Shown: in pieces, positions 2,895 to 32,878 of the stretch
Layout: the number at the start of each line of letters is the position of its first letter
Position numbering within the stretch: the first letter of the stretch is position 1
Source: Phycisphaerales bacterium
Lineage (GTDB): Bacteria; Planctomycetota; Phycisphaerae; Phycisphaerales; UBA1924
Direction: 5' to 3'
Assembly: GCA_020849105.1 (NCBI GenBank)
Contig: JADLGW010000051.1
Location: 1-64,000 of the forward strand
Length of the DNA stretch: 64,000 nucleotides
Notes under the pieces: model-generated
The model's input: only the letters and a program-made list of their open reading frames with translations
Told to the model about the DNA's origin: nothing
Database searches by the model: none
Made by a program: the position numbers and the translations under genes

Positions 2895-3157
2895 GAGATC
2901 ACCTGTCCCAGGGCCTTGGCGCACTCGCGCTGCGCCGCGCCAGCGGAGCCGTAGACACCCGCGACCTGCCAGCCGTGATCGCGGTAGACCATCGCGAGGT
3001 AGAGGCGCCGGTCCCGACCGCAGGGATGACGCAACACGGGCATGGACGCGAGGCGACGGCATGCCACTACGCGAGCGATCCACACGCCATCGCGCCGGCC
3101 GTCGATGTGGGGGCCATCTCGATCCGCCGTTACCCAGTAGGAGGACCATTTCAACAT
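2891..3157 (-). CDS. Hypothetical protein, 88 aa
   Basis: Short basic protein with aromatic residues at the N-terminus (MLKWSSYWVTADRDG) and no family I recognise. It is retained because it sits exactly between two genes with translational overlaps: its start overlaps the end of the RepA-like gene by 7 bases and its stop overlaps the HEXXH gene start as ATGA. That is typical of a real member of a compact operon. Confidence 0.6.
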   Translation of the reverse strand: MLKWSSYWVTADRDGPHIDGRRDGVWIARVVACRRLASMPVLRHPCGRDRRLYLAMVYRDHGWQVAGVYGSAGAAQRECAKALGQVIS

Positions 3158-4326
3158 GGGCCTCCCCCCTCTGGCGAGCGTGCTTCACCATCAGCGCCGG
3201 GCCAGACTTCGCCAAGCCCGCCAGAGTTCGCCAAGGTTGAGACTTTGGCGGTGTTGGCAGAGTCTGGCGAGATGTGGTTTGGCAACCCCCATGTCCACGG
3301 CCCCCGATAGCCATCAGGCGCGGCAACGACGCCGAGACGAGCCCGGGCCCGATCAAGCGTGCGAGCACTGACCCCTGCTGCCTTCGCCGCCGCCTTCACC
3401 TCGGTGCCTGTCTTGCGACCGTGGGCCAGTTCCGCCCGCAAGAAGTCCGTGGCCTCGGCGAGTGCGCCACCATCGCCACCGCCCTCGGACTCGGCGGCCA
3501 GCGCGTCATCAGCGCGCATGTTGACCGGGCTCGGTTCCCACTGGATCGCCGGTGGGATGCCGCCGATGTCGAAGGCCAGGCCGGTTCCCTCTGGCGCGAG
3601 GTTGTTCTTGCCGCTGAGCAGGAGTCGCCGACGCTTGTCGTCGGTGTCGCGTGTGAGATGCCATACCGCGCGAGCGATGCCGGTGAACGCCCTGCTGCCG
3701 ATGGCCAGGTCGTCGGCGATCGTTCCGGCGCTCTTGCGCCGGTGCGCCACGATCAGCACCGCCGGGCCGTACCGCTCTGCCAACTGCGCCACAGGAGCGA
3801 GCACGGCACGGACCTCGTTGTCCCGATGAGAGTCCGTTCCCCCGCCGATGAAGCTCCCGATGGGGTCGATGACGATCAGGCGGCAGTCAGGTTGCCGCCG
3901 GAGCGCTTCATCAAGCGCCGGCAGGTCCTCCAGCGTGAACATGGCCTCGACGAGGCGACCGCCCTCGCCGCGCCGGCGCACTGTGGCCAGCAGATGCACC
4001 CGGCGCACATCGGCACCATGCGCGTCAAGCCGCGGACGGATGGTGTCGTGCGGGTCATCCTCGGCCGACACCAGGATTACCGACCCAGCAGGACATGCGC
4101 TGCCGTCGGGCCAGGTGCGCCCGGTCGAGACGCGTGCCGACATGTCCGTCGTCAGGAAACTCTTCCCTTCCCCTGGCCGGCCGACGAGCAGCGAGATTCG
4201 ACCGAGCGGCACGCGCCCGGGCCAGAGCCACTGCACCTCGCGCGGCTCGACATCCGCGAGGCAGCGGAGCACGGGCCCGGGCTGGCCAGCATCGGCCACG
4301 CCGTTCTTGTCGACTCCTTGGCTCAT
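3151..4326 (-). CDS. RepA-like RecA-fold ATPase (AAA_25 type)
   Basis: 391 aa. The N-terminal ATPase has a Walker A at residues 49-57 (GRPGEGKSF) and a Walker B-like stretch (CRLIVIDPIGSF). Sensor-like residues follow in VLIVAHRRKSAG. This matches the hexameric RepA/RSF1010-type replication helicase family common in plasmids and integrative elements. The C-terminal ~110 residues contain a probable winged-helix segment (GVSARTLDRARARLGV). The start at 4326 overlaps the stop of the HTH gene (ATGA). It probably supports replication of the excised element. Confidence 0.8.
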   Translation of the reverse strand: MSQGVDKNGVADAGQPGPVLRCLADVEPREVQWLWPGRVPLGRISLLVGRPGEGKSFLTTDMSARVSTGRTWPDGSACPAGSVILVSAEDDPHDTIRPRLDAHGADVRRVHLLATVRRRGEGGRLVEAMFTLEDLPALDEALRRQPDCRLIVIDPIGSFIGGGTDSHRDNEVRAVLAPVAQLAERYGPAVLIVAHRRKSAGTIADDLAIGSRAFTGIARAVWHLTRDTDDKRRRLLLSGKNNLAPEGTGLAFDIGGIPPAIQWEPSPVNMRADDALAAESEGGGDGGALAEATDFLRAELAHGRKTGTEVKAAAKAAGVSARTLDRARARLGVVAAPDGYRGPWTWGLPNHISPDSANTAKVSTLANSGGLGEVWPGADGEARSPEGGGPC

Positions 4327-4523
4327 TGGCCCACCCCGCTTGCGCCCGCGGCCTTGCGGTCGAGGTGCTCGCGGAGGTCGGAGAGCCGCCAGCGGACGAT
4401 CCGCTCGCCGAGCCGGATCGGCGCGGGAATCTCTCCCGTCTGTGCCATCCGCCAAACGGTGCGGGGGTTGACGCCCAAGAGTTCGGCCACTTCGCGCACG
4501 CTGACAACGGCAACGTCCGCCAT
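4323..4523 (-). CDS. Excisionase/AlpA-like helix-turn-helix protein
   Basis: 66 aa winged-HTH of the MerR/excisionase (HTH_17) type: VSVREVAELLGVNPRTVW, then a wing with RLGERIVRW. Start ATG 4523 is chosen because AGGA lies about 9 nt upstream; a longer start at 4544 lacks a ribosome site. It is first in the minus-strand operon leading to the RepA-like ATPase and int, the usual place for a recombination directionality factor or operon regulator. Confidence 0.75.
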   Translation of the reverse strand: MADVAVVSVREVAELLGVNPRTVWRMAQTGEIPAPIRLGERIVRWRLSDLREHLDRKAAGASGVGQ

Positions 4524-5036
4524 CCGATTCCTGATCTCATCCATGAGTGCACACCCAGAGCGCCGCCGCGGCGCAGGAAGACGTGGGCCGCGCACGCACC
4601 GTGCGTCGCGGCGGGCCAATGGGTGGTTGGATTGCTGGATCGGTCGGTGGGTGGTTCGATGGCGTGCGTTGTCAGGTCTGGCACCCCAGTATCCATCTAC
4701 GCATTTCCCGCCCGGAGTGGCGAGACTTGGGGGGACTTTCAGGGAATCGGTGCTCCCTGGCCATCCCTATATCTGCGCGCGGCCGGAAAACTGTCGCGCG
4801 GTTTCGGCTGGTGCGTGTCGTCTCCAGTCATCGCCTGCCCCTGTACCCCTCTGCTGGGCCCGCCGATTTGTCGCGCACGGTCGCCACAATCCATCTCGCC
4901 TCCTGGCGAGCCAGTTGACGACAGGCAGGGACGATTGTGTTCGTTGGGTTCCTCGCGAAGACAGGCGTGGTCCTCTAGGGACCACTTATGCTTTTGGGGC
5001 GACCCGTGCGCGCGGAATCTGAGAGTTTTTGAGGAA
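4524..5036. other. Gene-free 0.5-kb region upstream of the HTH-repA operon
   Basis: I see no supported coding frame. It should contain the promoter of the minus-strand excisionase/RepA/int operon and the end of the DUF6527 operon. Two similar copies of TGGGTGGTT(G/C)GAT lie at about 4620-4660 and could be a regulator or initiator site; a hairpin lies at 4967-4985. Confidence 0.5.
4967..4985 (-). terminator. Hairpin downstream of the DUF6527 operon
   Basis: Perfect 7-bp stem GTGGTCC/GGACCAC with a 5-nt loop, 52 bases after the DUF6527 stop on the minus strand. No T-run follows, so it is only a candidate terminator or 3' stabiliser. Confidence 0.35.
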
Positions 5037-5483
5037 TTACTTGCGCTGCAGTGCCCTCAAGACCCTTTCCCACCACGTCGGGGTGGGGCCAGGCCTCGCC
5101 GTCTCAATCTTCCTCGGCACCGCGGCAGTCTGCTCGGCCTCCCGCGCGAAATACGCTCGTTTGACCCGCGCGTCACTTTCCCGGCCGCTCTGAACTTGCG
5201 ATTTGCTCCACGCCTCCGCCCACCGGACCTGGCCATTGGAAATCCAGTAGTGAGACCGGCATGGCAAGCTCCAACTCCCCACCGACGGCTCAATGGAAAC
5301 ACTCTTGCCATCGAAGATGAGCCGCCAGTCTGTCGGGCCCAGCGGCGTCACCACCTCGGCGCCGCAGCCGCAACAGCACTTGTGGGTCATCGTCCGGTAC
5401 TCGACAGAAATGTACAGAACACCCTCCTCGATCTTCTCGGGGATGAACTCCACAAACTGGTGCTGAAGACGGGACTGCCTCAT
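5037..5483 (-). CDS. DUF6527 family protein, partner of E1/ubiquitin-like genes
   Basis: 148 aa. It has a cysteine-rich putative metal site (HKCCCGCGAEV) followed by the conserved stretch VSIEPSVGSWSLPCRSHYW and a C-terminal Trp-rich end (TWWERVLRAL). In my recollection this family is found beside ThiF/E1 and multi-ubiquitin genes and is proposed to act in a bacterial ubiquitin-like pathway; its chemistry is unknown. The start at 5483 overlaps the E1 stop as ATGA, so translation is probably coupled. It is the third gene of the Ubl-E1-DUF6527 operon. Confidence 0.75.
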   Translation of the reverse strand: MRQSRLQHQFVEFIPEKIEEGVLYISVEYRTMTHKCCCGCGAEVVTPLGPTDWRLIFDGKSVSIEPSVGSWSLPCRSHYWISNGQVRWAEAWSKSQVQSGRESDARVKRAYFAREAEQTAAVPRKIETARPGPTPTWWERVLRALQRK

Positions 5484-6661
5484 GTGTGCTCCTCGCTCCG
5501 AGTGAGGGCCTGAACCTCGATCCCGAACGTGCAGTGGTGTTCCTTGGTGAAGTCCATGTAGAAGCCAAAGTGCTTTTTCCACCTTATCACGGCCAACGCC
5601 GCGCTGAGCGCGTTCAGATCGGCGACTTGGATGTTCTTGGCGTACTCATCCTCAGCGCCCGCGTCGGCGAAAGGGATTCGTTGAGCAATGTGATCGCGGT
5701 GCTCGGGGGTGCTCGTGGTGATGCGCAGCAAACCACCGAGCCCGCCCTCGCTCATGTACACCCCCATCCCGGTATCGACAAAGGGAACATTCGCTTGATG
5801 CAGGCGGTCGATGATGACCTTCTTCGCCGGCCCGTCGTCGATGCAGATGAAGACGAAGGCCATGTGGTCCAGTTCCACGACGTTTTCCGCCGAGACGTGC
5901 ACCGCGTGTGGGTAGATTCGCTTGTGCATCTTCGAGTAGATCGCCGCGAGGTATTCGACCTTTCGGGGACGTTTTTCGAGCTCGGCGAGGGAAGGCGCTC
6001 CCGGGGCGCGAAACGCGTTGTGCGTCAGGAAATCGTCGGCGTCGTAGAGATGGATCTGGTCGACGGGCGTCTTCGCCACTAGGTCAAGCACATAGGACCC
6101 AGTCCCACCCAAACCGATGATGGCGACCTTCGACAGCGCGAGCTTGTCAGTAAGCAGATCGATCTCTGCTCGACTCGATGCGGTGTCGACGTAGTGGAAC
6201 GGCGACTTGTCCTCTTCATCGGGCACTGGCGGCGCGAACGTCTTCGCGGTGACCGTTGGATCCACTGACCTTGCCGGGCCCGTCAGGATCGCGCAGTAGT
6301 TCGTGATTTTGGTGTAGAAGTCAGGAAAGGGGACTGAGGGTCTTGCGGAGAACGTGTGCCGGACAGGGACTCCTTCGGCGAGGGTCTTTGCTTCGCTGCT
6401 GTTCCGGAGGCCGTGGATTTCCGACCCGTCGGCGCGGCACGGGTAGTCCCCGTCGAAGTGGATCACGTGATCCTCCGGAACCGCCGCCACTTCGCCAGCC
6501 AGCTTCAGCTTGGCCACCAACGTTCCTCGCTTCACCACCTTGTCGGCGTTGAGGTAGGGAACGTCGTGCACCAACAGGAACCCCGCTCGGATGCGGATGT
6601 TGAAGCCCTCGTGCCGAAGACGCGCTAGGTCCGGACTACGACCGATTAGTCTCTGTGACAA
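5480..6661 (-). CDS. E1-like ThiF-family adenylyltransferase with DUF6791-type N-terminal region
   Basis: 393 aa. The C-terminal Rossmann domain carries the nucleotide-binding GLGGTGS at residues 183-189 and the acidic strand end LYDADDF at 206-212, as in ThiF/MoeB/E1 enzymes that adenylate the C-terminus of ubiquitin-like proteins. The first ~170 residues form a separate domain of the kind annotated DUF6791 in such fusions. Cysteines are at about 75, 123, 273 and near 377; which one, if any, forms a thioester is unclear. The likely start is TTG 6661, inside the end of the Ubl gene (26-nt overlap); no ATG fits better. It probably activates the neighbouring Ubl. Confidence 0.85.
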   Translation of the reverse strand: MSQRLIGRSPDLARLRHEGFNIRIRAGFLLVHDVPYLNADKVVKRGTLVAKLKLAGEVAAVPEDHVIHFDGDYPCRADGSEIHGLRNSSEAKTLAEGVPVRHTFSARPSVPFPDFYTKITNYCAILTGPARSVDPTVTAKTFAPPVPDEEDKSPFHYVDTASSRAEIDLLTDKLALSKVAIIGLGGTGSYVLDLVAKTPVDQIHLYDADDFLTHNAFRAPGAPSLAELEKRPRKVEYLAAIYSKMHKRIYPHAVHVSAENVVELDHMAFVFICIDDGPAKKVIIDRLHQANVPFVDTGMGVYMSEGGLGGLLRITTSTPEHRDHIAQRIPFADAGAEDEYAKNIQVADLNALSAALAVIRWKKHFGFYMDFTKEHHCTFGIEVQALTRSEEHT

Positions 6662-6911
6662 GGAACACCATCCCGCTCTTGATGTGAACCATCCCGCCCT
6701 CGACGAGTTCGCCCTCGGGGTTCTCGCGCGGTCCCCGGCTGTACTGCACCGTGTACAGCACGTCGGGGTCAGTCCGCACCGGGTCGAACGCCAGTGCGAC
6801 TACCTGCAAGAACGTCAACGTCGTGGAATTCACGTGCTTCGGCCTGCCGTTCACGATCACGGTGATGTGGGGCTCGGGCCCGCCCTGGTTTCCGCCTTCG
6901 TTCTTCGCCAT
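6636..6911 (-). CDS. Ubiquitin-like protein (multiubiquitin-domain family, single domain)
   Basis: 91 aa with one beta-grasp-type domain: ITVIVNGRPKHVN, then LTFLQVVALAF and VLYTVQYSRGP. This matches single repeats of the bacterial multi-ubiquitin family. It ends MVFLVTETNRS, without the terminal di-glycine of eukaryotic ubiquitin. The start at 6911 has a strong site (TAGGAGG, 7 nt before ATG). It is first in an operon with E1 and DUF6527. It is probably the protein adenylated by the E1, with transfer to targets or filament-like modification as the inferred outcome. Confidence 0.75.
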   Translation of the reverse strand: MAKNEGGNQGGPEPHITVIVNGRPKHVNSTTLTFLQVVALAFDPVRTDPDVLYTVQYSRGPRENPEGELVEGGMVHIKSGMVFLVTETNRS

Positions 6912-7023
6912 ATGGGCCTCCTACGAGTGTTGTGCTATTATCCCGTTAGAGGATGGTAACCGGCGTCCTCATGGAGTCAACACCAACGGGAAAATGTCGT
7001 CCCGATACCGGATGGAGGCGTGC
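6912..7023. promoter_or_regulatory. Divergent promoter region between Ubl operon and XRE regulator
   Basis: The Ubl operon (minus) and the XRE-ImmA genes (plus) are divergently transcribed from this 112-bp gap. On the minus strand an AT-rich GATAATAGC lies about 25 nt upstream of the Ubl ribosome site and could serve as a -10 element; I do not see a clear -35. An autoregulatory operator for the XRE protein would be expected here. Confidence 0.4.
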
Positions 7024-7410
7024 ATGGATTTGAATCGCTACGTCGGCGAACGGATTCGCGACCTGCGCAACCGCCACGGAGGCCCCAATGGCATCTCGCA
7101 GGAGGCCTTGGCGAAGGCCCTGGGAACAGCGGCCAACACCGTTTCCCGCTGGGAGACGGGCACATACAAGCCGAGTCTCGAAGACCTCGACGCGCTCGGG
7201 CGGTTCTTCGGGGTTTCGATTCTGGCATTTCTGCCGCACGAAGCTGACCCTGCTGATGCCAAGGTGAGTGCGCTGCTGCGGGCAGCCCGAGACCTTCCCG
7301 AGGACGACATCGACGAGTTGCAGAAATACGCGGAGTACCGGCGTGCTCGGGCGCTGATGGGAGCCTCATCGGCGAAGAAGAAGGCCGGGCGCCCCCGCGC
7401 GCAACCGTGA
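7024..7410 (+). CDS. XRE-family transcriptional regulator
   Basis: 128 aa. The N-terminal helix-turn-helix (ISQEALAKALGTAANTVSRW, about residues 23-45) is followed by a linker with PSLEDLDALGRFFGV. The basic C-terminal tail is KKKAGRPRAQP. Start 7024 is chosen for GGAGG about 9 nt upstream. It is followed after 36 bp by an ImmA/IrrE peptidase gene. XRE-ImmA pairs form induction switches in which the peptidase cuts the repressor, for example in ICEBs1, and CapH-CapP upstream of CBASS and related defence operons. The divergent Ubl operon is the obvious target. Confidence 0.85.
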   Translation: MDLNRYVGERIRDLRNRHGGPNGISQEALAKALGTAANTVSRWETGTYKPSLEDLDALGRFFGVSILAFLPHEADPADAKVSALLRAARDLPEDDIDELQKYAEYRRARALMGASSAKKKAGRPRAQP

Positions 7411-7446
7411 ATCCGCGTAGCAAACATCCCGTGGGAAGCAAATCGT

Positions 7447-8073
7447 GTGAATCGAGCCGCCTACTACAACTCCCTCAAGGACCTCGCCCGTGCCAAGCGC
7501 CTGCAATACGGCCTGACCACGCCTCGTGTGCAGCGATCCCACCTGCGTGCGATCTATCGCGACGAAGGCATCCGCATCGACCTCTGGCCGCACCGTCTGC
7601 GAGAGGTGCGCGGTGCTTATTTCAACGACGAAATCGGCCCGACCGTGATGCTGGTGAAGGGTCTGCCCGAGGACCCGATGGTCTTCACCATGGCCCACGA
7701 GCTCAAGCACCACCTGGTCGACCGCGAGTTGCCGGTGGCGTGCTGCAGCGACCGAAATGCCAACGAGCACATCGAGATCGGCGCGGAGATCTTCGCCGCC
7801 GAGTTCATTTTCCCAGAGGAGGAGTTCGCGGCCACGCTTGCGCGGCAGGGCGTCGCCGCCGGGAGCTGCTCGGCAGAAGACCTTGTCCGTCTGAAGCACG
7901 ATACGAGAACCACGCTCAGCTATGCCGGATTGGCGAAGCGGGCCGTGTTCATGAACCTCGCTCTCCCCGCTGCCCTTGCCAACGTTCGGTGGAAGAAGCT
8001 TGAGGAGCAGATGTTCGGGGAGCCGCTTTACAAGCAAATCCAACGCAGGCGCTCACGCTACAGGTCGACTTAG
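7447..8073 (+). CDS. ImmA/IrrE-family metallopeptidase
   Basis: 208 aa. It has the zinc motif H84-E85-L-K-H88 in FTMAHELKHHLVD and downstream acidic residues in IGAEIFAAEFIFP (Glu114 is a likely third ligand), typical of the COG2856 peptidase family. It starts at GTG 7447. The family cleaves partner XRE repressors after DNA damage or other stress, so this gene probably derepresses the adjacent Ubl-E1 operon. Its stop overlaps the end of the convergent HsdR fragment by 4 bases. Confidence 0.85.
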   Translation: MNRAAYYNSLKDLARAKRLQYGLTTPRVQRSHLRAIYRDEGIRIDLWPHRLREVRGAYFNDEIGPTVMLVKGLPEDPMVFTMAHELKHHLVDRELPVACCSDRNANEHIEIGAEIFAAEFIFPEEEFAATLARQGVAAGSCSAEDLVRLKHDTRTTLSYAGLAKRAVFMNLALPAALANVRWKKLEEQMFGEPLYKQIQRRRSRYRST

Positions 8074-9785
8074 TCAACCTCCTGGTCGGTGCTCAACTCC
8101 GCCTGCCGGAGCACGAGTTGGGTCGCATCCTCCGAGAGGTCTGGCGGATAACCGTATTTCGCCAGCATGCGGCGCACGTTCCGCCGGAGCGTCGCCCGCA
8201 CCGACTCCCGCTGCGTCCAGTCAAGCTTGGGCATCTTCTTGACCATCTCCGCCAGTTCCCGCGCCATCAGCCGCAGCGTGTCCGACTTCATGACCGCCTT
8301 AGCCGACCCGTTCTCGGCGAGGGCGTCGTAGAACGCGGTTTCTTCATCGCTCAGCCCCAGTGCTTGGCCGTGCCGCTGCGCATCGCGCAGGTGCTTGGCC
8401 AGATCGATCAGCCGGGAGATCATCTCGGCGGTGGTGATGGCCTTGTTCGTATACCGCAGCATCGCGTCTTCGAGCGCCTCGCGGAACTTCTTGCTCTGCA
8501 CCAGATTGGACCGCTCGGTGACGCGGATCTGGTCGGTGAGGAGCTTCCTGAGCGTCTCAAGGGCCAGGTTCTTCTGCTCGAGCGCCGCCACCCGGGAAAG
8601 GAACTCGTCGGAGAGAATGTCCAGGCGAGCCTCGTCAAGCCCGGCGGCCGCGAAAAGGTCGATGACCTGATCCGCGTCCACCGCCCCGCCGATCACCTGT
8701 CTGACCGCGGCATCAATGTCCCCGCGCCGACCAGCGCTCCCACCCCGCACATCATCTGCCAGCCGCTTGCGGATCATCGCAACGATGCGCTGGAAGAAAG
8801 CCAGATGCTCGACCACATCCTCTGTCTCCGGCCGCGGCACGGCGAGCGCGAAGGCCGACGACAGTTCCTTCACCAGCGTTCGGAACCGCTTCCACCCGTC
8901 CTGCTGCCCGAACACATGATCGATGGCTCGCAAGTAGACCGGCAACGCGCCCTGCGGCGCGGTCGCCAGCGCCGCGGCATAGTCACACCCGTGGAAGAAC
9001 GACTTGAGCTTCTCGAACGCTGTCAGCATCGCCGGCACGGCCTCGTCCTGCACCTGACGCACCGCCTCCCCCGTGCCGCCCGCCTGCGTATACGTCGCGA
9101 GCGCGTCGGCAATCTGGTCGGCGAGGCCCAAAAGGTCCACGATCAGCCCGCCCGGCTTCTCGCCGTAGACGCGGTTGACCCTGGCGATCGCCTGCATGAG
9201 GTTGTGCCCGGCCAGCGGCTTGTCGAGGTACATGGTGTGCGCCGGCGGACAGTCGAAGCCCGTCAGCCACATGTCGCACACGATCACCAGACGCAGGTCG
9301 TCCGACGGGTCCTTGAACCGCTCGGCCAGACGCTTGCGTGCCGCCTTTGTGCGCATGTGCTGCCGCAGCGGCTCGGGGTCATCCGCGGTGCCCGTCACGA
9401 CCACCTTCATCGCGCCCCGTTCATCGTCGGCGTCGTGCCAAGCGGGCCGCAGGGCCTTGATTGCCTCATACAGCCGCGCGGCGATGTCGCGACTCATGGT
9501 CACGACCATCGCCTTGCCTTCCATCGCTGAGCGCCGCTTCTCCCAGTGCTCGACGATGAACGTCGCCAGCCGGTCCACCCGCTCCGGCGCACCGACCAGC
9601 GCCTCCAGCGGCACACGAATCGGGTCCTCGATCTGGACGCCTCGCTTGTCCGCGGCGACAGCCCGATCAATTTCCGCCTCAGCTGCTGCTGCGCCCTGCT
9701 CATCGACCGTGAGTTTCACGATCCGCGATTCGTAGTACAGCGGCTTGGTCGCTCCATCCTCGACCGCTTGGCGGATGGGTGCGCC
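8070..9785 (-). pseudogene. C-terminal half of type I restriction enzyme HsdR
   Basis: About 570 codons resemble the second half of HsdR from the AVEDGATKPLYYESR stretch on. They include the second RecA-like domain (VCDMWLTGFDCPPAHTMYLD and MQAIARVNRVYG, helicase motifs V-VI) and the C-terminal helical region. The N-terminal nuclease domain and helicase motifs I-III are absent. At about 9780 the sequence changes abruptly into an unrelated ATPase gene in another frame. HsdR proteins are normally ~1000 aa, and no hsdM or hsdS is present, so the fragment cannot form a restriction enzyme. Confidence 0.85.
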
Positions 9786-10408
9786 GGGCGCGTCAGCGTG
9801 CGGGCCACCTGCTCGCACTGTTCATTGGGCAGTTCCGGATTGAGCCGATGCACCGCCGTGATCAGGCGGTTGGTCAGCACCAAATGCGACGCACTCGCTC
9901 GCTCGCCCGCGTCGTCGATCGCCTTCGACCGGTCGAAGGCGACCGACAGATGCCCGCTGAACAAAAGGGGGCACTCAGACCAGGTCAGCACCGATCGAAA
10001 GCCGAGGCCCTTGCAACCGATGTACTTGTTCCGGTCGAGCTGCTTAGGGCTGCAGTCGCTGATGACCAGGGATTCCAGACCCCCTGCGGAGAAGGCGGAC
10101 CCCGAGTTGGCGACAATCACGCAGTCGTCGAGTAGTTCGACCAGGAGGCGTCCCCCGGTGGAGTGCTCTGCGGCGTCGTCGGCATTCTGGAGAAGTTCGA
10201 GCAGCTGGCGCCCGCGATAGCCCTCGATGGCGGCGAGCTCCCTGTTCGCATGGCCCACGAGCTCCTTTGGCTGGCGGGCGTAGAGCTCAAGTTGGTCGGA
10301 GGCCAGCTTCGCCACCACTCCCTGTGCGGCCTCGACCGACGCGAAGTCGCGCGCCGAATCAGGTGCCGACGGCGGGGTGATCCCTGTCGCGGTGGCCTGT
10401 TGCGTCAC
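9716..10408 (-). pseudogene. N-terminal fragment of sacsin-like GHKL ATPase
   Basis: Starts at GTG 10408 with GAGGAG upstream. It carries a GHKL ATP-binding fold: N-box LLELLQNADDA, then VIVANSGSAF, and the G2-like KYIGCKGLGFRSVL, as in the sacsin N-terminal/HSP90-like ATPases of large defence proteins. Similarity stops at about VARTLTR (near 9787), where HsdR sequence begins; the frame then runs out of frame over hsdR to 9716. Only ~205 residues of what is usually a protein of over 1000 aa remain, so this is a 3'-deleted gene. Confidence 0.75.
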
Positions 10409-10715
10409 TCCGGAACTCCTCAAGCGGTGGCCGGCCGATGCGTCCGGCAGTGATCGGCCCGGCTGTCGGCGGTCATTGTCCCGTCGTCCGTCGTCCCCGA
10501 GTTACCACATTACGGTAGCCGAAAAAAATCTCGCGACCGCGAGCGGGCTTCTGATCGCGGGAAGGCCGCAGTTGTTGTAGTCCAGCGTGGTAACCCGAGT
10601 TACCGAGTTACGCTCGCAAAACAGCGTGGATTCTTCCCGCGTCGCATGCAGCCCCACACCGGGCCAAGCGAGCGAGGAGTTCCCCGTGATCCAGCAAGAC
10701 TCAATCGGAAAGGCA
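10409..10715. promoter_or_regulatory. Divergent intergenic region with CGAGTTAC repeats
   Basis: No coding signal. Three copies of CGAGTTAC lie at 10498-10505, 10596-10603 and 10604-10611, the latter two in direct tandem. An inverted GGTAAC at 10589-10594 forms a 6-bp hairpin with the middle copy. The region separates a minus-strand ATPase remnant from the plus-strand Sak4/DUF669 genes and is a plausible operator for one or both. Confidence 0.45.
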
Positions 10716-12759: not shown

Positions 12760-14772
12760 CTCGCGCTGGTGTCACGTGTCCTTGTTGTGGTTTGCCGACC
12801 ACGACAATGGAGGACATCCGGCTTGAGGGACGAGCCGGTCGGCTCGGTCAACAGCTGACCGCTGTGATGTACGAGGGAGTAGAGTCCCGAGAGTATCGGA
12901 TGGCGACGCGTCATGAACTTGATCTACCGGAGGCCATCTCTGGTGAGCTCGATGCAGTGTTTGGGCGATCCCGCACGGCCGAGTTCGAGAGCCGCTGAAA
13001 CCGACCAGCAGCAGGTCAATTTCATGCGACCTGTACGGCATCGACACGTTCGGCAAGGTCTTCACAAGTCGCCAGCAACTATCGCTAGGGATATTTGTGC
13101 GAACAACACGAGAACTCTGCAGCACTGCGGGCTCGGACGATTGGGCAGAGGCCGTCTACCGGCTGCTTTCGTTGAATGTCGATCGTGTTGCTGATCGTTC
13201 GAGTACATTCTGCCGTCCAGATCCGACCCCTACGCAAAGTGGCGTGATCAACACGTTCTCCAGATTCGCACTTCCCATCACGTGGGATTATATCGAGGGC
13301 GTACCGATCTCCGATTCCAGCGGCGGTTACATCCACAGTCTTGAATGGATTGCGAAGGTTCTCGAACACTTGGAGAGGTCAATTCCCCGCCAGGGACCCG
13401 CATGCGTACTTCGCGGTTCTGCCACGCTGTCGGTGGCGGGCGAGGGATACGACCTGATTCTCACTGACCCGCCCTACTACGAGGCGATCTCGTATGCGGA
13501 CTTGTCTGACTTCTTCTATGTGTGGCAGCGGCGCTTGCACGATGACCTGACGGAATTCGAGAAGGAGTTGACCGACAAGGACGGGGAAGCAGTGCAGCAT
13601 GTTCGTAGTGACAAGCGGCGATCAGAGGAAAAGAAAAAGTACGAGGACCGCATGGCAGAAGCGTTTGCTGCTGCGCATGCTTCACTCAAGGCAAGTGGCC
13701 GGTTCTGCGTCGTGTTCGCGCACAAGCAGCCGGATGCCTGGGAAACGCTCGTGGCGGCGATGATCAGGGCGGGGTTCGTCGTTGTCTCGTCTTGGCCCAT
13801 CCAGACGGAAATGGGTAACCGTGGTCGCGCCATCAGCTCCGCAGCCCTGGCCTCTTCAGTGTGGTTGGTCTGTCGAAAGCGAGCCGCGAATGCACGACCG
13901 GGCTGGGACAACCGTGTTTTGGAGGAAATGCGCCAGAACATCGCCATCCAACTCCGCGAGTTCTGGGATGCTGGGATTAAGGGACCAGACCTCATCTGGT
14001 CGGCGATTGGGCCGGCTCTGGAGGCGTACAGCAAACACCCCGTCGTTCGCAAGGCCAACGAGCCCCACGCGACGATGAGCGTGGGCGAGTTCCTGACTCG
14101 AGTGCGCCGCATGGTGGTGGACTACGTCGTAGGCCAAGTGCTGACCGGCGAGAAGGGGTCGGACCTGGCCGCTGCCGACCGACTCGACGAGGTCACCGCC
14201 TACTACCTGCTCCATCGTCGCTACTTTGGCCTCGAAGACGCGCCCGTCGGCGCGTGCATCCTCTACGCCACTGCGTGCGGCCTATCTGACACGGACCTCG
14301 AACGGACGTGGACATCCTCTCCGGCGGAAAGGCACAAGCCGCGGACGAAGACCCGTTTGGGCTAGAAGACGAGAACGACGACGAGGACGCCGATGCTGAC
14401 CCCGACGCAGATGAAGATGGGCGTGGGGGCAGCAAGGTCAAGCTCAAGGCCTGGAACCAGCGCAAAGGTCGGAGCTTGGGCTTAGAGGCACCCGAGGGCA
14501 AGGCCGTCCCGCTGATCGACCGCATCCATCGCCTTATGAATCTCTGGAAGAGCGGCGACCTGCACAAGGTGGACGAATACATCGATGAGCACAGCCTCCG
14601 CCGCAACGAACTGTTCAAGCGCGTGGTGCAGTCGCTGATCGAGCTCTCAGCCCCAACTGGGGGGGGCGGCGAGCGCTCGCTGCTGGAGAGCATCAGCAAC
14701 CACATCGGCGCGAAGGGGGCGGTCCGCGACCGCGGCGCAGCGCTCTTCATAACCACACCCGCCAACGACTGA
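12720..14772 (+). pseudogene. DUF1156 DNA methyltransferase remnant (5'-deleted, two frameshifts)
   Basis: Three consecutive frames encode one DUF1156 adenine-specific methyltransferase. Frame 1 (to 12998) has the zinc-ribbon-like VTCPCCGLPTTTMEDIR. Frame 2 (about 12968-14365) has YGIDTFGKVFTSRQQ and the catalytic motif IV LTDPPYYEAISYADL. Frame 3 (from about 14310) has GGSKVKLKAWNQRKGRSLG and the C-terminus. Each switch fits loss of one base, near 12967 (GGGCGATCC) and 14309 (TGGACATCC). The N-terminal methyltransferase motif I and DUF1156 domain proper are missing, and the upstream end joins a phage gene. Such genes occur with DUF499 ATPases in anti-phage loci, as here. Confidence 0.8.
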
Positions 14773-14828
14773 TCGATCGAACCCACCCGCCGGCAAGACC
14801 TGGCCCGCTCGACCCGAGGTACGACAAA

Positions 14829-16110
14829 ATGGCAAAGCAACCCTGGAAAGCCTGGCACGAGGTGGTCAAGCTGCGAGACGACCTCCGGTCGGGCGAGCTG
14901 CCCCTGCACATGTTCGCCGCGGACCTCTACGAGGTCATGATGCAGAACGGCAAGCGGCCGATCTATGAAAAGCCGGAAGAGTTCTTCGCCCTCACCTTCC
15001 CAACGCACAACCTGCGGAACCTAGTGAAGGATGTGGTGCTGCGGCTGGCAGGCAAGAACGACAAGGCGGTCCGCCAGCTCGAACTCACCTACGGTGGCGG
15101 CAAGACGCACACGCTGATCACGATGCGGCACCTGGTTTACGACCCGGCCAACCTGCCGGACCTGCCGGCAGTGCGGGAGTTCACGGAGACCATCGGCCAG
15201 GAGCCGCCGCAGGCGCGGGTCGCAGCCCTGTGCTTCGACAAGATCGACGTTGAGACGGGGTGTGATGTCCGCTCCCCCGATGGTTCGGTCCGCCGTCTGC
15301 GGCAGCCGTGGAGCATCCTGGCCTACCAGATCGGCGGCGATGAGGGTCTGAAGCTGCTCAATGCCAAGGGCGAGGCCGGAGCAGCTACTGGCTCGACGAC
15401 AACAACATCCCCGAGAAGGACGGCCAGTTGCCCGCGGAGTGGAGGCTCGGCAATCGGCCGAACCTCACGCAGATGCAGTCCACGGCGGCGGAGCAGATCT
15501 CGGCTGACATCGTCAAGGCCAAACTGCTCGAGGAGATCGGCAAGACCAAGGCCCTGTCGTCCGGAGCGTCAGCGCTGGGCGTCCGTGTCCACACACTCCC
15601 AACGAAGCCCCGCGACATCGAGGACGACGGCCTGTTCCATTACGCCGTGCTGCCCCCGAGCTCCGCGTCGGATTCCGGCAAGCCCAGCGCAGAGGCCAAG
15701 CGTTTCCTCGATGAGACGACGGGCAGCGACAAGCCGCGTGTGTACCGCAACGCCGTTCTGCTCCTCGCTGCATCGCGTGAGGGCCTCGACGTGGCCCACG
15801 CGCGGGTCCGCGACCAGCTCGCGTGGGAGCGAGTCCTCGATGATCTGACCCCAAAGAACGATGAGGATCGCAAGCAGAAGGGCTCGGTCGATGTAGCGCG
15901 CTTGCAGACGCTGAAGATCCACATCGACAAGGCGCGGGCACGCGTGCCAGAGGCGATCCGGCAGGCATACTGCATCGTCGTGACGGTGTCGGAGAAGGAC
16001 GAGGCCCAGGCGTTCAAGATCACCGTCACTGACGATCCGCACTTCGAGACGATCAAAGGTGATGCGCGTTCGCGCGTGCAGGACACCGCAATCACGGCGT
16101 CGCAGCGGCG
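14829..16110 (+). pseudogene. DUF499 ATPase remnant with internal deletion
   Basis: The N-terminal 185 residues are typical of DUF499 ATPases, including the P-loop LTYGGGKTHTL (about residues 92-102). After LLNAKGEA (about 15375) the frame is lost. The protein resumes in the next frame as WLDDNNIPEKDGQLPAEWR, then IPEKDG..., PSSASDSGK and VRDQLAWERVLDDL, and ends at about FKITVTDDPHFETIKGDAR. Several hundred residues between Walker A and the C-terminal helical part are missing. A further join to unrelated sequence follows near 16090-16110. DUF499 and DUF1156 genes normally work together, so both halves of this system are dead. Confidence 0.8.
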
Positions 16111-16204
16111 CGCCGGCTGGCGGCGTCCGAGCATCCGGTCGTCCTCTCCGTTGGCGTCAAACCGGGGGAGATCTGGTCGATCGGGTAAGCGGCCCCAAAC
16201 GGCG

Positions 16205-16513
16205 GTGCTCGCGGAGCACGCCCACCTGGGGCCGAACGGAATCGCATTGGACCTGGCCAGCGCCTTCCCCACCGCAGCGGTGGTGGAGATCAAGGGAGAC
16301 GCCTGGATCACAGTGACGGCGGCGGCGAAACTGTTGCTCGACGACATCTCGGGGATCGACCTCGACAAGGCCAAGGCACGGGTGTCGAAGGCGGCGAACG
16401 AGGGGAAGTTCCGGACGAACGGCAAGAAGGGGGCTGCGCGGCGTATTGGCCGGGACTCGTTCAGTACCTGGCGGCTCGAGCAGCGCGCCAAGGACCTGGC
16501 GGCCTACAACTGA
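16205..16513 (+). CDS. Small protein or C-terminal fragment with HTH-like region
   Basis: Last frame before the right end. The in-frame GTG 16205 would give 102 aa: a hydrophobic start (NGIALDLASAFPTAAVVEI), then AWITVTAAAKLLLDDISGID and a basic end GRDSFSTWRLEQRAKDLAAYN, resembling a short DNA-binding domain. It is fused in frame to the DUF499 remnant upstream, so it may be only the tail of another deleted gene. No ribosome site is evident. Function unknown. Confidence 0.4.
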   Translation: MLAEHAHLGPNGIALDLASAFPTAAVVEIKGDAWITVTAAAKLLLDDISGIDLDKAKARVSKAANEGKFRTNGKKGAARRIGRDSFSTWRLEQRAKDLAAYN

Positions 16514-22798: not shown

Positions 22799-23548
22799 TC
22801 ACGCTGACCGCGACTCGATCCCGTTCCTCGCGTATTCGAGAATGTCAAGCGCGGGTGCGGTGCCCATTGACCTCAGCCGGTCGATGAGTCGCAGCACAAA
22901 AAGCGCAAGGGCGGCATTGGTGAGTTGTGAGTCGATGGCCGCCGAGTCCGGCTCCGTATATCGCACCTCAAACATGCCGTGCTGGGCCGAGCAGCCGAGG
23001 TCGAGGCGGCCCTCCTTCGAGGTCGTGTTGATGGCAGAAGTGAAGGGTGAGCCAAATGGTGGATTCCAATCGCTGTCCACGGTCAGCAGGCCACCCAGAA
23101 TGTCGTGGAGTTTGTGCTTCACTTCCGTGCCGCGATTGGATTGGAACTGAATGCTTGTCCTGTGCAACGCTCGCACGCTGGCGATCTTGTCCGCCGCGTA
23201 GCGCATCTGATCGGTGTTCATTCCCTGCTTGACCTCGAACACCGCGTACACGCTTTCGGCGGGCACGTAGAGCGCGTCGCCGTAGTTCAGCACGAACGGC
23301 GAGTACTGCCGGTCATGGATCACGATGTCGATCTGGTCGCTGCACGCGCCCTTGGAGTCAATCACGAACGCCTTATTGACCTTGTACCGCTTGGGCAGGT
23401 GCTTGTAGAGCATCTCCATCCACTGCCGCTCGGACACCTCGCCCATCGTGGCATTGTGCAAGACCGTGCGTCGCGTGATGCCCAACTCGCACGCCAGCCG
23501 GTCGTGCAGGGCCAGGAACAACTCGTTGAGCGTGGGCTTACCGGCCAT
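22799..23548 (-). CDS. DUF6602-like PD-(D/E)XK nuclease, putative CBASS effector
   Basis: 249 aa. A restriction-endonuclease-like core is visible: D74 in SDQIDIVIHD and E105-V-K107 in YAVFEVKQGM, the D...ExK triad, with Glu37/40 helix residues before it. The start MAGKP at 23548 has GGAGG 8 nt upstream and overlaps the TRIP13 gene by 11 nt, so it is translationally coupled to the CBASS operon. It occupies the slot usually held by NucC in HORMA/TRIP13 CBASS. A C-terminal ~90 residues could bind the nucleotide second messenger. The family name is from memory; the nuclease call rests on the motif. Confidence 0.7.
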   Translation of the reverse strand: MAGKPTLNELFLALHDRLACELGITRRTVLHNATMGEVSERQWMEMLYKHLPKRYKVNKAFVIDSKGACSDQIDIVIHDRQYSPFVLNYGDALYVPAESVYAVFEVKQGMNTDQMRYAADKIASVRALHRTSIQFQSNRGTEVKHKLHDILGGLLTVDSDWNPPFGSPFTSAINTTSKEGRLDLGCSAQHGMFEVRYTEPDSAAIDSQLTNAALALFVLRLIDRLRSMGTAPALDILEYARNGIESRSA

Positions 23549-24494
23549 GCGGGCCTCCATGCGAGCCGGTGGACGCTTGTTCCCTGAACGGCGGCGTGGG
23601 CTTCAAGCCTTTGGCGATCTCAACCGCACGCGACCCGACAAGCCCGCTCTCGGGGAAGGCGTCGAGAACAAGCGTGGGGATAAGTCGCTGAGTCAGGTCG
23701 GAATACGTGAAGCCGTAGTGGCGACCGTGCGCTTCGCCGGTGGCATCGGCGAGGTGGCCGAGGTCGCGGTCACTGAACCCGCTGCCCGCAAGGCTCGCCC
23801 TCAACACCGCAAGCCGTTGCTCGTGGCTGGGACGCGCAAACTCGAACACGGCCGCCGCGCGGCGTCGCACAGCCGGGTCGATCGCATCCAATCGGTTCGT
23901 GCACATCACCACCGCGACGGGAAGGCGGTCGGTCGCGAGATCGTCGATCCCGCGGATGAGGGCGTTCACGCCCGCGCGGTCCTCATGGTGCATCTGCGCG
24001 GCCTCGCGGGATTGGGCGAGCGCATCGGCCTCGTCGATGAGGAGGATGATCCCGCGCCCGGCCTTGCCGTCGCCGCCCCGCGTCTTACCGACGGCCTCGC
24101 GGACCTGCTTGAACGCGCCGGAGATGAGGCGGGTCATCTCGCCGACCGCGCCGCTGCCGCGGGCATTGAGACTCAGGGCGTACAACTCAACCCGCACCTT
24201 AGCGAGTTTGGCCACTTGGTTCCCAAACGAGCGGGCGAGCGCGGTCTTGCCGGTGCCCACATCGCCCGCATGGACGAAAAGCGGCGGGCGGGAGTGGAAA
24301 TACTCGACGGCGGCGAGTTCGCCCTTGTGGTGCCTTTTGTTCCAGTCGCGGAGTTGCCCCGGATCAACCAGCAGGAGCGTTTCCTTGACAAGCCGTTCCT
24401 TGTACACGTCCAACCCAACAAGCCGGTCGTAGTCGGCTTGGCCGCGTGGGTCGGGAAGTGTGACAACATCCTCGAACAAGTCGGCGTGGTTCAA
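23538..24494 (-). CDS. cap6: TRIP13/Pch2-like AAA+ ATPase (Cap6)
   Basis: 318 aa. Walker A GDVGTGKTA at residues 77-85, Walker B LLIDEAD at 151-157, and sensor-1-like VVMCTNRLDAIDPAVRRR. In type III CBASS this ATPase disassembles the active HORMA-CD-NTase complex and keeps the system off. TTG 24494 is taken as start because it overlaps the HORMA stop as TTGA. Order cdn-HORMA-TRIP13-effector matches known loci. Confidence 0.85.
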   Translation of the reverse strand: MNHADLFEDVVTLPDPRGQADYDRLVGLDVYKERLVKETLLLVDPGQLRDWNKRHHKGELAAVEYFHSRPPLFVHAGDVGTGKTALARSFGNQVAKLAKVRVELYALSLNARGSGAVGEMTRLISGAFKQVREAVGKTRGGDGKAGRGIILLIDEADALAQSREAAQMHHEDRAGVNALIRGIDDLATDRLPVAVVMCTNRLDAIDPAVRRRAAAVFEFARPSHEQRLAVLRASLAGSGFSDRDLGHLADATGEAHGRHYGFTYSDLTQRLIPTLVLDAFPESGLVGSRAVEIAKGLKPTPPFREQASTGSHGGPHGR

Positions 24495-25000
24495 GAGACA
24501 CCCCCGAGCACGGCACGGCGCACGCCGCCGCCGCCAGAGATGTACGACTTGTCTTCGATCCAGCCACCCGGCGCCTTGGGCTCCTCGCCGGACACGCGCT
24601 GAATCGGCAAGCCCGCCTTGTACCGAGCGCGGGCGTCCTCGCTGAGGTTCCACCATTTCTGTGAATATGTCAGGTAGGACGTGAAGTACGCCCCGGAGGT
24701 TTCGACCCCGCGCTTGACCGTGCCGGAACGGTCACCGTCGCCGGTTGTCCCCAGCGACAACGCCGTGTACCGAAGCGTGGCGGGCAGCCATGCGCCGTCT
24801 TTCTTGAACCCGTACATCACGGTGTCCAAATACCCGTCGCTCAGGAGCGAAACGAGCTCGCCCAAATAGTTCTCGATGTCCTGGTCGGAGGGGCTGCCGT
24901 ACGCCTGTTGCATTTGGCGCAAGTCGGCAACCACCTTTCCCCCTACACGGCGGGCATCGGAAGTCGTGAATGTCGAGGTCATCGTGTACGTCTGCGTCAT
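24491..25000 (-). CDS. cap7: Bacterial HORMA-domain protein (Cap7)
   Basis: 169 aa. It resembles bacterial HORMA1 proteins: SDARRVGGKVVADLRQMQQ, YLDTVMYGFKKDGAWL, YLTYSQKWWNLSEDAR. In CBASS these proteins recognise a closure-motif peptide, bind the CD-NTase and switch it on. It starts 3 bp after the CD-NTase stop and overlaps the ATPase gene. The glycine-rich C-terminus (SYISGGGGVRRAVL) may be the mobile safety-belt end. Confidence 0.8.
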   Translation of the reverse strand: MTQTYTMTSTFTTSDARRVGGKVVADLRQMQQAYGSPSDQDIENYLGELVSLLSDGYLDTVMYGFKKDGAWLPATLRYTALSLGTTGDGDRSGTVKRGVETSGAYFTSYLTYSQKWWNLSEDARARYKAGLPIQRVSGEEPKAPGGWIEDKSYISGGGGVRRAVLGGVS

Positions 25001-25003
25001 GCA

Positions 25004-25993
25004 TTACCCTCTGAAGGAAGTTCCCAACACCACCCGCCACATGGCGACGGCATCGGCCTTGGTCGATGCGGTGTGGGCTTCGTTCAGGGCGTTCAGCGCG
25101 TCCTGCGCGGCATCCACGATGAGTTTGCGATTGGTTTCAGTGTACTGAGAGGAGACGTTGTTCTTGGCGTTCACAGGGTCGAAGATCTCCACCACGCCCG
25201 TCGCCGTCGCGGGTAACTCGCTCGGCTGGTAGTAGTCCTTGAACGCGATCCGCTTCTTGAGACCCGTCGAGACGATGTAGTTGAAGAACGCCTCCATCGC
25301 CTTGCGATAGTCGGAGAAGTCCTGCCCGCCGTCGGCGAGGTGGGCGCAGATCAGTTCGACCATGAACGACTTGAACCGGAAGTTCGCGTCCTTGGCCTTC
25401 TGCTCGGCGGCCCACCACTTGATAAGGCGGACAACCTGGGCGAAGTGGGTCTCGTGCGCCGACTTGCGCTTGCGGATGAACTCCAGATGCATCGGGATGC
25501 TTGTCATCAGCGTCGAGCCGTCGTCCTGCGAGACCAGCAAGCCCCGGTCCTTCGAGTCACCCTCGTAGAACACGGGAACCACATCAATCTCGATCCCGGC
25601 GGTTTTGTATTCGATCCCGACCGAGTAGGTCTTGGGCTTGATCTGGTCCGCCGACATCTGCGGGTACGCTTTCCGGAGCCGTTCGGCGATCCAGTTCAGC
25701 AACCTCGCATCAACCTTTTTCTCGCCCTCGTAGGTGATGTACAGCGCGACATCGACATCGCTACACGTCTTGAGTGCGGTGCCCTTCGCCAGACTGCCGG
25801 AGAGGTACGACTTGGCAAGGCCGCACGTCGGATGGCCCTTCATGTACCGCGCCAGTTGCTCGCGGAGCGCGCCGACCTTCTCTCGGCGCTCCTTGGCGGT
25901 CTCGGCGTCAAGGTTGACGCGCTCCTCGCCGAAGCGGCGGATGTCGGCGTAGGTGATGGGAGGATCAATGTGTGCGGAAGTAGGCGTCGGCAT
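25004..25993 (-). CDS. CD-NTase (CBASS cyclic oligonucleotide synthase)
   Basis: 329 aa nucleotidyltransferase. The active-site motif G66-S67 (SGSLAKGTAL) precedes D79-x-D81 (SDVDVALYI), and the third acidic residue is D137 (IEIDVVPV). This is the OAS/cGAS-like CD-NTase arrangement. Start MPTPTSAH at 25993 is preferred over longer frames. It makes a cyclic di- or trinucleotide on infection; together with HORMA and TRIP13 genes it defines a type III CBASS. The clade cannot be assigned by eye. Confidence 0.85.
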   Translation of the reverse strand: MPTPTSAHIDPPITYADIRRFGEERVNLDAETAKERREKVGALREQLARYMKGHPTCGLAKSYLSGSLAKGTALKTCSDVDVALYITYEGEKKVDARLLNWIAERLRKAYPQMSADQIKPKTYSVGIEYKTAGIEIDVVPVFYEGDSKDRGLLVSQDDGSTLMTSIPMHLEFIRKRKSAHETHFAQVVRLIKWWAAEQKAKDANFRFKSFMVELICAHLADGGQDFSDYRKAMEAFFNYIVSTGLKKRIAFKDYYQPSELPATATGVVEIFDPVNAKNNVSSQYTETNRKLIVDAAQDALNALNEAHTASTKADAVAMWRVVLGTSFRG

Positions 25994-31948: not shown

Positions 31949-32401
31949 TCAGTCGAACACGTACTTCTCGTCGAACTCAATCTCGTGCAGCCGGAGCATC
32001 CGGAGGAGTTCCGACTTGAAGTCCTCCTTCTTGTGGTGTTCGTGCTGGCCTGCGATGTACTTCTTGACGGCCTCTTCCTGCGACTTGCTGACCGAGAAGA
32101 CCGCGTATCCCTCTTGCCACGCGAACCCGCGCAGAGACGGGAACTCATCGTGAAGCCACTTGCTCGACCGTGCTTTGATGGTGCGCATCAGGCCCGACAC
32201 CGACTCATCGGGCCGCCAGCGGAGATACACGTGGACATGGTCCTCTATGCCGCCGATGTCGTAGAGCACCCCCTTTTCGGCTCGCACGATGCCGCCCATG
32301 TAGGGATACAGGCGTTCGGCGATATCAGCTGTGATCCACGGCTCGCGGTGTTTTGTGCTGAAGACGATGTGGAGAAGAATCCGGGAGTAGGTGCCCGGCA
32401 T
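31949..32401 (-). CDS. IS200/RAYT-type Y1 transposase, copy 2
   Basis: 150 aa, same length as copy 1, with HVH in EDHVHVYLRW and the catalytic Tyr in AVKKYIAGQHEHHKKEDF. Most differences from copy 1 are conservative (for example EFPSLRGFAWQEGYAVF against TFPELGAFAWQEGYSVF). Opposite orientation to copy 1. Confidence 0.9.
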   Translation of the reverse strand: MPGTYSRILLHIVFSTKHREPWITADIAERLYPYMGGIVRAEKGVLYDIGGIEDHVHVYLRWRPDESVSGLMRTIKARSSKWLHDEFPSLRGFAWQEGYAVFSVSKSQEEAVKKYIAGQHEHHKKEDFKSELLRMLRLHEIEFDEKYVFD

Positions 32402-32580
32402 CGCGGGCCCTTCGCCGGGTGGATGCGGCCCTCCGCCCCTCCGGGGCGGGAAGAGAGTACGAGGACCACGCTTCCACGGGTTGCGCGTCGGCGGGCTCCT
32501 CCGCGCCGCCGCTCCACCCGTGGCTACAGCCCGCGGCCCCTTCGGGGCCAAGAGTTGCCCCGTTGGGGCGTTCAGAGCGG
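32402..32580. repeat. REP-like repeats upstream of RAYT copy 2
   Basis: Inverted copy of the 26635-26800 block, including CGCTTCCACGGGTTGCG and CGCTCCACCCGTGGCTAC with GGCCCCTTCGGGGCC. Boundaries coincide with the ends of the transposase and of the small gene at 32582. Confidence 0.8.
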
Positions 32581-32581
32581 A

Positions 32582-32818
32582 TCACAGTCCGGCTTCGCCG
32601 TCCTCGATCTGCATCGCGGATGCGGGGGCGAGCGCGTTTCTGAGAATGCTCGTCCCGTACTTCCGGGCGATGTGGAGCACTTCTTGAGCGCCCAGCTCGG
32701 TCCAGTCGGCATCCTGCACCAGCGCAGCGACGATCCGAACATCGGTTGCGTCATTGCCCACGCGGGCACTCAACGCTTCATACTCAGCAACGAGCGACTC
32801 TGTGATCAAACCCGGCAT
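32582..32818 (-). CDS. Small acidic protein, 78 aa, unknown function
   Basis: Helical, acidic protein (LVAEYEALSARVGNDATDV, LVQDADWTELGAQEVLHIA). The start at 32818 has GGAGAAG about 9 nt upstream. A truncated relative lies at 26461-26627, each next to a RAYT. It is divergent from the DUF2075 gene with a 60-bp gap. It may be a passenger or an antitoxin-like partner; there is no direct evidence for either. Confidence 0.65.
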   Translation of the reverse strand: MPGLITESLVAEYEALSARVGNDATDVRIVAALVQDADWTELGAQEVLHIARKYGTSILRNALAPASAMQIEDGEAGL

Positions 32819-32878
32819 AGGTTCTTCTCCGCGCGTCTGCGTCGTGTGAAGACCGGGAGCATGTTACCCTGGTGGAGC

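Follow-up and report, generated by a model that had tools for sequence, protein, structure and literature searches.

In the window analysed here, a stretch of 64,000 nucleotides from a Phycisphaerales bacterium, an operon encodes a ubiquitin-like protein (Ubl), an E1-like adenylating enzyme and a DUF6527 protein, and the genes for an XRE-type regulator and an ImmA-type peptidase diverge from it. Judged by its sequence, the operon represents a compact branch of the bacterial ubiquitination-like (Bub) superfamily. We refer to it as a Bub-like variant and not as a strict Bub operon because three Bub parts are present, E2 and JAB are absent and a DUF6791 domain precedes the E1 domain. Iyer et al. 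(2006, PMC1779556) had already noted operons of a related kind, in which Ubls occur in tandem, the E1 domains are "fused to a distinct domain instead of E2" and a metal-binding protein is encoded; the novelty of the branch is provisional. According to the reading that we favour, this branch of the Bub superfamily would work through an oxyester relay at the residue Y340 of the E1 and would be controlled by a CapH-CapP-like switch; we consider the chances for and against this reading to be even.

The operon is real, intact and more than a chance arrangement. All five open reading frames (ORFs) between positions 5037 and 8073 are intact and the Pfam matches of all five genes exceed their cut-offs. 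The Ubl and E1 genes overlap by 26 nt, the E1 gene starting with a TTG codon inside the Ubl gene, and the E1 and DUF6527 genes overlap by 4 nt. Chance is set aside because nearly every relative examined has the same triad order and the 26-nt overlap recurs in 54 of 56 loci (53 with an ATG start codon of the E1 gene, plus the window with TTG). Thus, the original prediction, which had described a coupled Ubl-E1-DUF6527 operon, was correct with respect to coordinates, coupling and protein families. It had also assigned the N-terminal domain of the E1 to DUF6791, in agreement with the Pfam match of residues 10-160 (2.4e-52), and had noticed no recognisable E2 or JAB deconjugase; indeed, none of the five genes has a Pfam match to either family. 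In the whole genome, DUF6791 and Multi_ubiq are each present in one copy.

The closest solved E1 by profile is BubCD of Citrobacter. The E1 family aligns with the BubCD family over residues 168-370 (hhalign 98.2%, E 4.8e-14), and the DUF6527 family aligns with the DUF6527 proteins (BubE) of canonical Bub operons (hhalign 98.5%, E 2.8e-15). The locus L071 on an E. coli plasmid is a close relative of the Citrobacter Bub operon, with 88% identity over the 134 residues compared, and encodes Multi_ubiq and Prok-E2_E, then Prok-JAB and ThiF, and then DUF6527. Eight further canonical Bub operons match the general layout of L071; L104 alone has no annotated DUF6527.

The window operon is no isolated case. 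The E1 was present in 3 of 392 sampled genomes of the source organism's own phylum, in 8 of 398 from the phylum of a Shewanella relative and in 14 of 395 from that of a Chloroherpeton relative, which corresponds to a frequency of about 1-3.5% across the three phyla. Using tblastn with the window E1, homologues were detected on 115 plasmid records, which come from Acinetobacter, Rhizobium, Streptomyces, Cytobacillus and Leptolyngbya, among other genera. All of these plasmid matches are below 60% identity, and no phage record gave an E1 match. The 55 non-identical E1s that were compared are 33-56% identical to that of the window. The order Ubl, E1, DUF6527 was constant across the loci read, and in Methylomonas the DUF6527 matches flank a transposase gene. 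In triads with long Ubls (L019, L021, L022, L066 and L068), UvrD-helicase genes often adjoin, and sigma-70 or PD-(D/E)XK genes are found in some; this UvrD-type neighbourhood differs from that of most short-Ubl triads.

Beyond DUF6791, the E1 contains a ThiF domain (residues 171-300 and beyond; 7e-12). The residues D207, R218, K234, Y340 and S105 are kept in 55 of 55 E1s, D275 is kept in 53 and the GxGGxG motif is kept as well. By comparison with MoeB and ThiF, we take D207, R218, K234, D275 and the GxGGxG motif to be adenylation residues. No cysteine is invariant among the 55 E1s; C75, the best conserved one (48 of 55), was dropped as a candidate catalytic cysteine, being absent from the other seven. 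Oxyester intermediates have reportedly been described for Bub systems, which is to be taken as a lead only. Y340 lies just ahead of the helix following the crossover loop and aligns with Tyr370 of BubCD (hhalign), the residue that is mutated in the complex of BubCD D104A/Y370F with BubB and BubA (PDB 9eav). The tyrosine thus stands at the place expected for the catalytic cysteine of other E1s. The invariant Y340, its alignment with Tyr370 and the lack of an invariant cysteine together make a cysteine-independent, oxyester-type relay likely in this branch.

The Ubl of the window consists of one domain and, as had been noted from its sequence, does not end in Gly-Gly. A terminal serine is present in 56 of the 56 Ubls compared, and on this comparison the missing Gly-Gly is a family rule and not a defect of the window Ubl. 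The last Ubl codon lies within the overlap with the E1 gene and is TCG in 23, TCA in 17, TCT in 13 and TCC in 3 cases, and residue 8 of the E1 varies with it between Arg, His, Leu and Pro, with identical counts. The serine is kept and E1 residue 8 is free, because all four TCN codons are used with the E1 residue changing alongside; read at the codon level, this shows that selection acts on the serine of the Ubl and not on the overlapping E1 codon.

MccB acts on a peptide that does not end in glycine. This fact, the terminal residue of the Ubl and the superposition of the window E1 domain on the structures of ThiF and MccB would fit a biosynthetic triad, which produces either a sulfur carrier (like ThiS-ThiF) or a peptide-nucleotide (like MccB). 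However, no sulfurtransferase or other biosynthetic genes are found repeatedly next to the triad in the loci that were annotated, and the homology to BubCD and BubE as well as the regulators of the DNA-damage type speak against such a role, which we regard as quite improbable.

The DUF6791 domain is a candidate for the part of the E2. An AlphaFold2 model of the E1 has a mean predicted local distance difference test (pLDDT) score of 71, and most ten-residue blocks of the DUF6791 domain reach 85-91. In this model, the domain is composed of a helix, four strands and a helix, an order and spacing that presumably resemble those of a UBC/RWD domain. Ten positions are invariant in 25 diverse DUF6791 members, including S105, which is located about 10 residues before the long helix, near the expected position of an E2 active site. 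Canonical BubB also has an invariant serine, which is part of a QRWSRH motif. In a VIA structure search, the E1 model (residues 1-393) was aligned to Cap2 (PDB 7to3) over 310 residues with a root-mean-square deviation of 16.9; the other matches cover mainly residues 145-393, and missing E2 structures among them are uninformative on DUF6791. We put the chance that DUF6791 plays an E2-like role at about one half. At two loci, L093 (4742-5942) and L094 (5153-6338), DUF6791 and ThiF are encoded by separate overlapping ORFs; there, DUF6791 may exist as a protein of its own, or a frameshift may have split the gene.

Alternatively, DUF6527 could be an E2- or E3-like transfer enzyme that replaces the missing E2, as the original prediction had proposed. 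It is always encoded beside the E1, and all 67 DUF6527 proteins compared have C36 and H78, even those that have lost other motif cysteines, which are present in 64-65 of the 67. However, the presence of DUF6527 does not track the missing E2. The protein is clearly unlikely to be a replacement E2, because canonical Bub operons carry DUF6527 alongside their own E2 and JAB, and this part of the prediction is not supported. Moreover, the CxCGC...C..H motif resembles a zinc site, and a second, weaker DUF6527 match (28.4 bits) is present elsewhere in this genome (L111, about 2724-2933). The genome has no second DUF6791 or Multi_ubiq match, and the domain thus also occurs outside Ubl operons. The structure model of DUF6527 was poor (pLDDT 64.5), Foldseek found no fold with it, and neither sequence nor profile searches identified a homologue in the PDB. 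By its motif, DUF6527 is most likely a zinc-binding adaptor and, by homology and gene position, an ordinary Bub component in the place of BubE. DUF6791 or direct transfer from the E1 would account for the absence of an E2 better than DUF6527 does.

Regulators of the same kind recur upstream of the related operons. In 18 of 28 short-Ubl loci, a peptidase of the M78 family is encoded upstream of the Ubl gene at a distance of up to about 1.4 kb. Of these 18 loci, 14 also have an XRE-type HTH protein, and a WYL regulator is found in two of the short-Ubl loci. The 28 are those with a Ubl of at most 180 aa whose upstream DNA could be read, and the counts were made by hand on loci that are not independent. 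A convincing M78 peptidase is present in only 4-5 of 25 long-Ubl loci. The sister triads L011, L034 and L067 encode near-full-length CapP (9e-60 to 4e-69) and CapH (2e-23 to 9e-33) at the same position. In a published survey, 219 of 544 Bub operons were accompanied by CapH and CapP or by CapW (PMC13373217), and single-stranded DNA (ssDNA) is known to activate CapP (PMC10904395). For the XRE protein of the window, capH is the best PADLOC model (3.4e-10), and for the ImmA protein the model RmrA (5.8e-9) ties with capP (7.2e-9). The proposed resemblance to the CapH-CapP switch therefore holds for the three sister triads and for the best model of the repressor; the window pair itself is divergent. 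Damage-induced control is the best reading of this arrangement and would not be new in kind. The sigma-70-like sequence in the intergenic region (TTGACT-16-TACCAT, 6980-6953, minus strand) is a single match where chance alone would give 0.7 in the region scanned, and the inverted repeat around it is only a candidate operator, the regulators of the sister loci being too distant to serve as a phylogenetic check.

Several other arrangements were seen upstream of the triads. At L073 (2243-4060), L082 (7194-9034), L088 and L093, a sigma-70-like or HTH protein and an M78 peptidase replace the XRE and ImmA proteins, which suggests a peptidase-controlled sigma-factor switch. A small DUF gene lies between promoter and Ubl at L033, L067 and L107 (DUF2188), L034 (DUF3892) and L030 (DUF1508). 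Such insertions occur in both canonical and DUF6791-type short-Ubl operons, and the window operon has none.

It is also conceivable that the XRE-ImmA pair controls a mobile element, like ImmR-ImmA of integrative and conjugative elements (ICEs), and is next to the Ubl operon merely by coincidence. AlpA-like and AAA_25 genes are present at 3151-4619 of the window, ImmR-like control of an ICE in Streptococcus has been reported (PMC10233336), and the regulator pairs of the window and of L011 are no close relatives. However, only one gap of 112 bp separates the divergent pair from the Ubl gene, regulators without mutual relationship (XRE-M78, WYL and others) are found repeatedly at this position in many phyla, and near-full-length CapH and CapP occur at sister triads. 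A chance neighbourhood is in our view an unlikely explanation. The features of the operon and its control region are summarised in Table 1.

Table 1. Genes and predicted regulatory elements of the Bub-like operon and the divergent regulator pair
Feature	Coordinates	Strand	Basis
Ubl, single-domain Multi_ubiq, BubA-like, 91 aa, ends ...TETNRS	6636..6911	-	Pfam PF14452 1.1e-16
E1-like adenylating enzyme, 393 aa, DUF6791 + ThiF	5480..6661	-	Pfam, NCBIfam, hhalign to BubCD family
DUF6527 protein, 148 aa, probable zinc-binding, BubE-like	5037..5483	-	Pfam PF20137 6.5e-25; hhalign 98.5%
XRE/Cro-type repressor, CapH-like, 128 aa	7024..7410	+	Pfam HTH_3 1.8e-13; best PADLOC model capH
ImmA/IrrE metallopeptidase, CapP-like, 208 aa, HELKH motif	7447..8073	+	Peptidase_M78 1.8e-10; PADLOC RmrA/capP
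Divergent intergenic promoter region, 112 bp	6912..7023	.	sigma-70-like match on - strand
Candidate operator inverted repeat, left arm (ATTATCCCGTT)	6937..6947	+	91% complementary to 6985-6995
Candidate operator inverted repeat, right arm (AACGGGAAAAT)	6985..6995	+	pairs with 6937-6947

Under the favoured reading of a Bub-superfamily branch with a tyrosine relay and a damage switch, the XRE repressor would occupy the 6912-7023 gap in the unstressed cell. DNA damage, sensed as ssDNA, would activate the ImmA-type peptidase, the repressor would be cleaved and the divergent operon released. To judge from its intact active-site residues, the E1 would then adenylate the carboxylate of the C-terminal serine of the Ubl, and the alignment with BubCD Tyr370 suggests that the Ubl is passed as an oxyester to Y340 in the crossover loop and not to a cysteine. 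The fused DUF6791 with its invariant Ser105 might replace the missing E2, and DUF6527 would most probably bind zinc and help to choose targets or to assemble the complex. Since no deconjugase is encoded, the system itself may be unable to take the tag off again. A stress response or an anti-phage function would be its likely role.

Some observations weigh against this reading. The match of the window ImmA to the capP model is confined to the first half of the model (7-124 of 242), and the inverted repeat in the gap is marginal against chance, as we estimate that about 0.1 would be expected in 171 bp. Phage protection has been shown for no Bub operon (PMC13373217). The fold of DUF6791 rests on one model of moderate quality, and the sequence of the domain is similar neither to the JAB domain of BubC (hhalign) nor to Prok-E2_E (hhalign probability 0.6%). 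The latter result, the lack of a separate E2 gene in the triads examined and the separate DUF6791 ORFs of L093 and L094 are compatible with another scheme, in which the E1 transfers the Ubl directly from its own active site and DUF6791 merely serves binding or dimerisation. The invariant residues of DUF6791 and its predicted E2/RWD-like element order argue against this scheme, which we regard as rather unlikely. A wider version of the tyrosine-relay reading would see in these triads a widespread, cysteine-free and damage-induced cascade, in which a serine-ended Ubl proceeds from the tyrosine oxyester of the E1 to a serine oxyester of DUF6791 and no deconjugase takes part; we regard this proposal as tentative and less likely than not.

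The window as a whole is a defence island with damaged neighbour genes. A type I restriction HsdR that has lost its N-terminus and an N-terminal TmtA fragment are two truncated defence genes next to each other (8070-10423, minus strand). Moreover, part of a HmaB-like methylase and a HmaC-like ATPase split over two frames (13097-16513, plus strand) represent a damaged Hma-type system. A TRIP13-type AAA ATPase (23538-24656, minus strand; PADLOC 1.4e-120) and a cyclase (25004-25951, minus strand; 1.3e-122) of the cyclic oligonucleotide-based antiphage signalling system (CBASS) seem to make up a CBASS of the HORMA/TRIP13 type within this island, and a long ORF (31985-34900, plus strand) matches the candidate defence family PDC-S41 (4.9e-284). 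With truncated or split defence genes next to it, the Ubl operon could itself be a decaying remnant without function. However, its five ORFs are intact and the active-site residues, the overlap and the serine terminus are conserved, and decay is very improbable.

If the favoured reading is true, a C-terminal glycine, a catalytic cysteine, a separate E2 and a deconjugase would all be dispensable for Ubl tagging, and the triad would be a minimal three-protein model for the evolution of Ubl pathways. It would also be a further example of Ubl operons that are paired with varying damage-sensing switches. The C-terminal serine rule, the invariant tyrosine and the absence of E2 and JAB are points worth testing.

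Among known systems, the Bub operons (BubA-BubB-BubCD-BubE; Citrobacter, PDB 9ea4, 9ea5, 9ea8, 9eae and 9eav; L071) share with the window operon the Multi_ubiq Ubl, a homologous E1 with an invariant crossover-loop tyrosine, the terminal DUF6527 gene, mobility and control by CapH and CapP, CapW or CapK and CapS. In contrast to them, the window operon lacks Prok-E2_E (BubB) and JAB (BubC) and has DUF6791 fused to the E1 instead; its single-domain Ubl ends in an encoded serine, whereas two of the three stand-alone canonical BubAs checked end in glycine. The C-terminal Ubl domain of the multi-ubiquitin domain protein ZDHYS365 (PDB 9cd2) can be aligned with almost the entire window Ubl and likewise has a terminal serine (TQTDKS); that protein is longer (222 aa). 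Architecture and gene order are also those of the DUF6791-ThiF proteins accompanied by multiubiquitin and DUF6527, which are known only by NCBI annotation names; the window E1 exceeds the cut-off of their family PRK06153.1-4 (NF004805, "hypothetical protein") with 527.7 against 352 bits (E 1.9e-158). Many Ubls of these relatives are two to three times longer than the single domain of the window, and they are often encoded beside UvrD-helicase or sigma-70 genes. Like the CapH-CapP damage switch, the window pair combines a divergent HTH repressor with an ImmA-type peptidase at the operon promoter, but the sequences are divergent and the C-terminal half of CapP is unmatched. Finally, the Bil operons (BilABCD) and Cap2 of CBASS share the Ubl- and E1-based logic of bacterial conjugation. 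Both use an E2, and Bil also a JAB peptidase, which the window operon lacks; their chemistry is that of cysteine thioesters, whereas the window E1 family has no invariant cysteine. In Cap2, which is an E2-E1 fusion, the E2-type domain precedes the E1 domain, just as DUF6791 precedes ThiF in the window E1.

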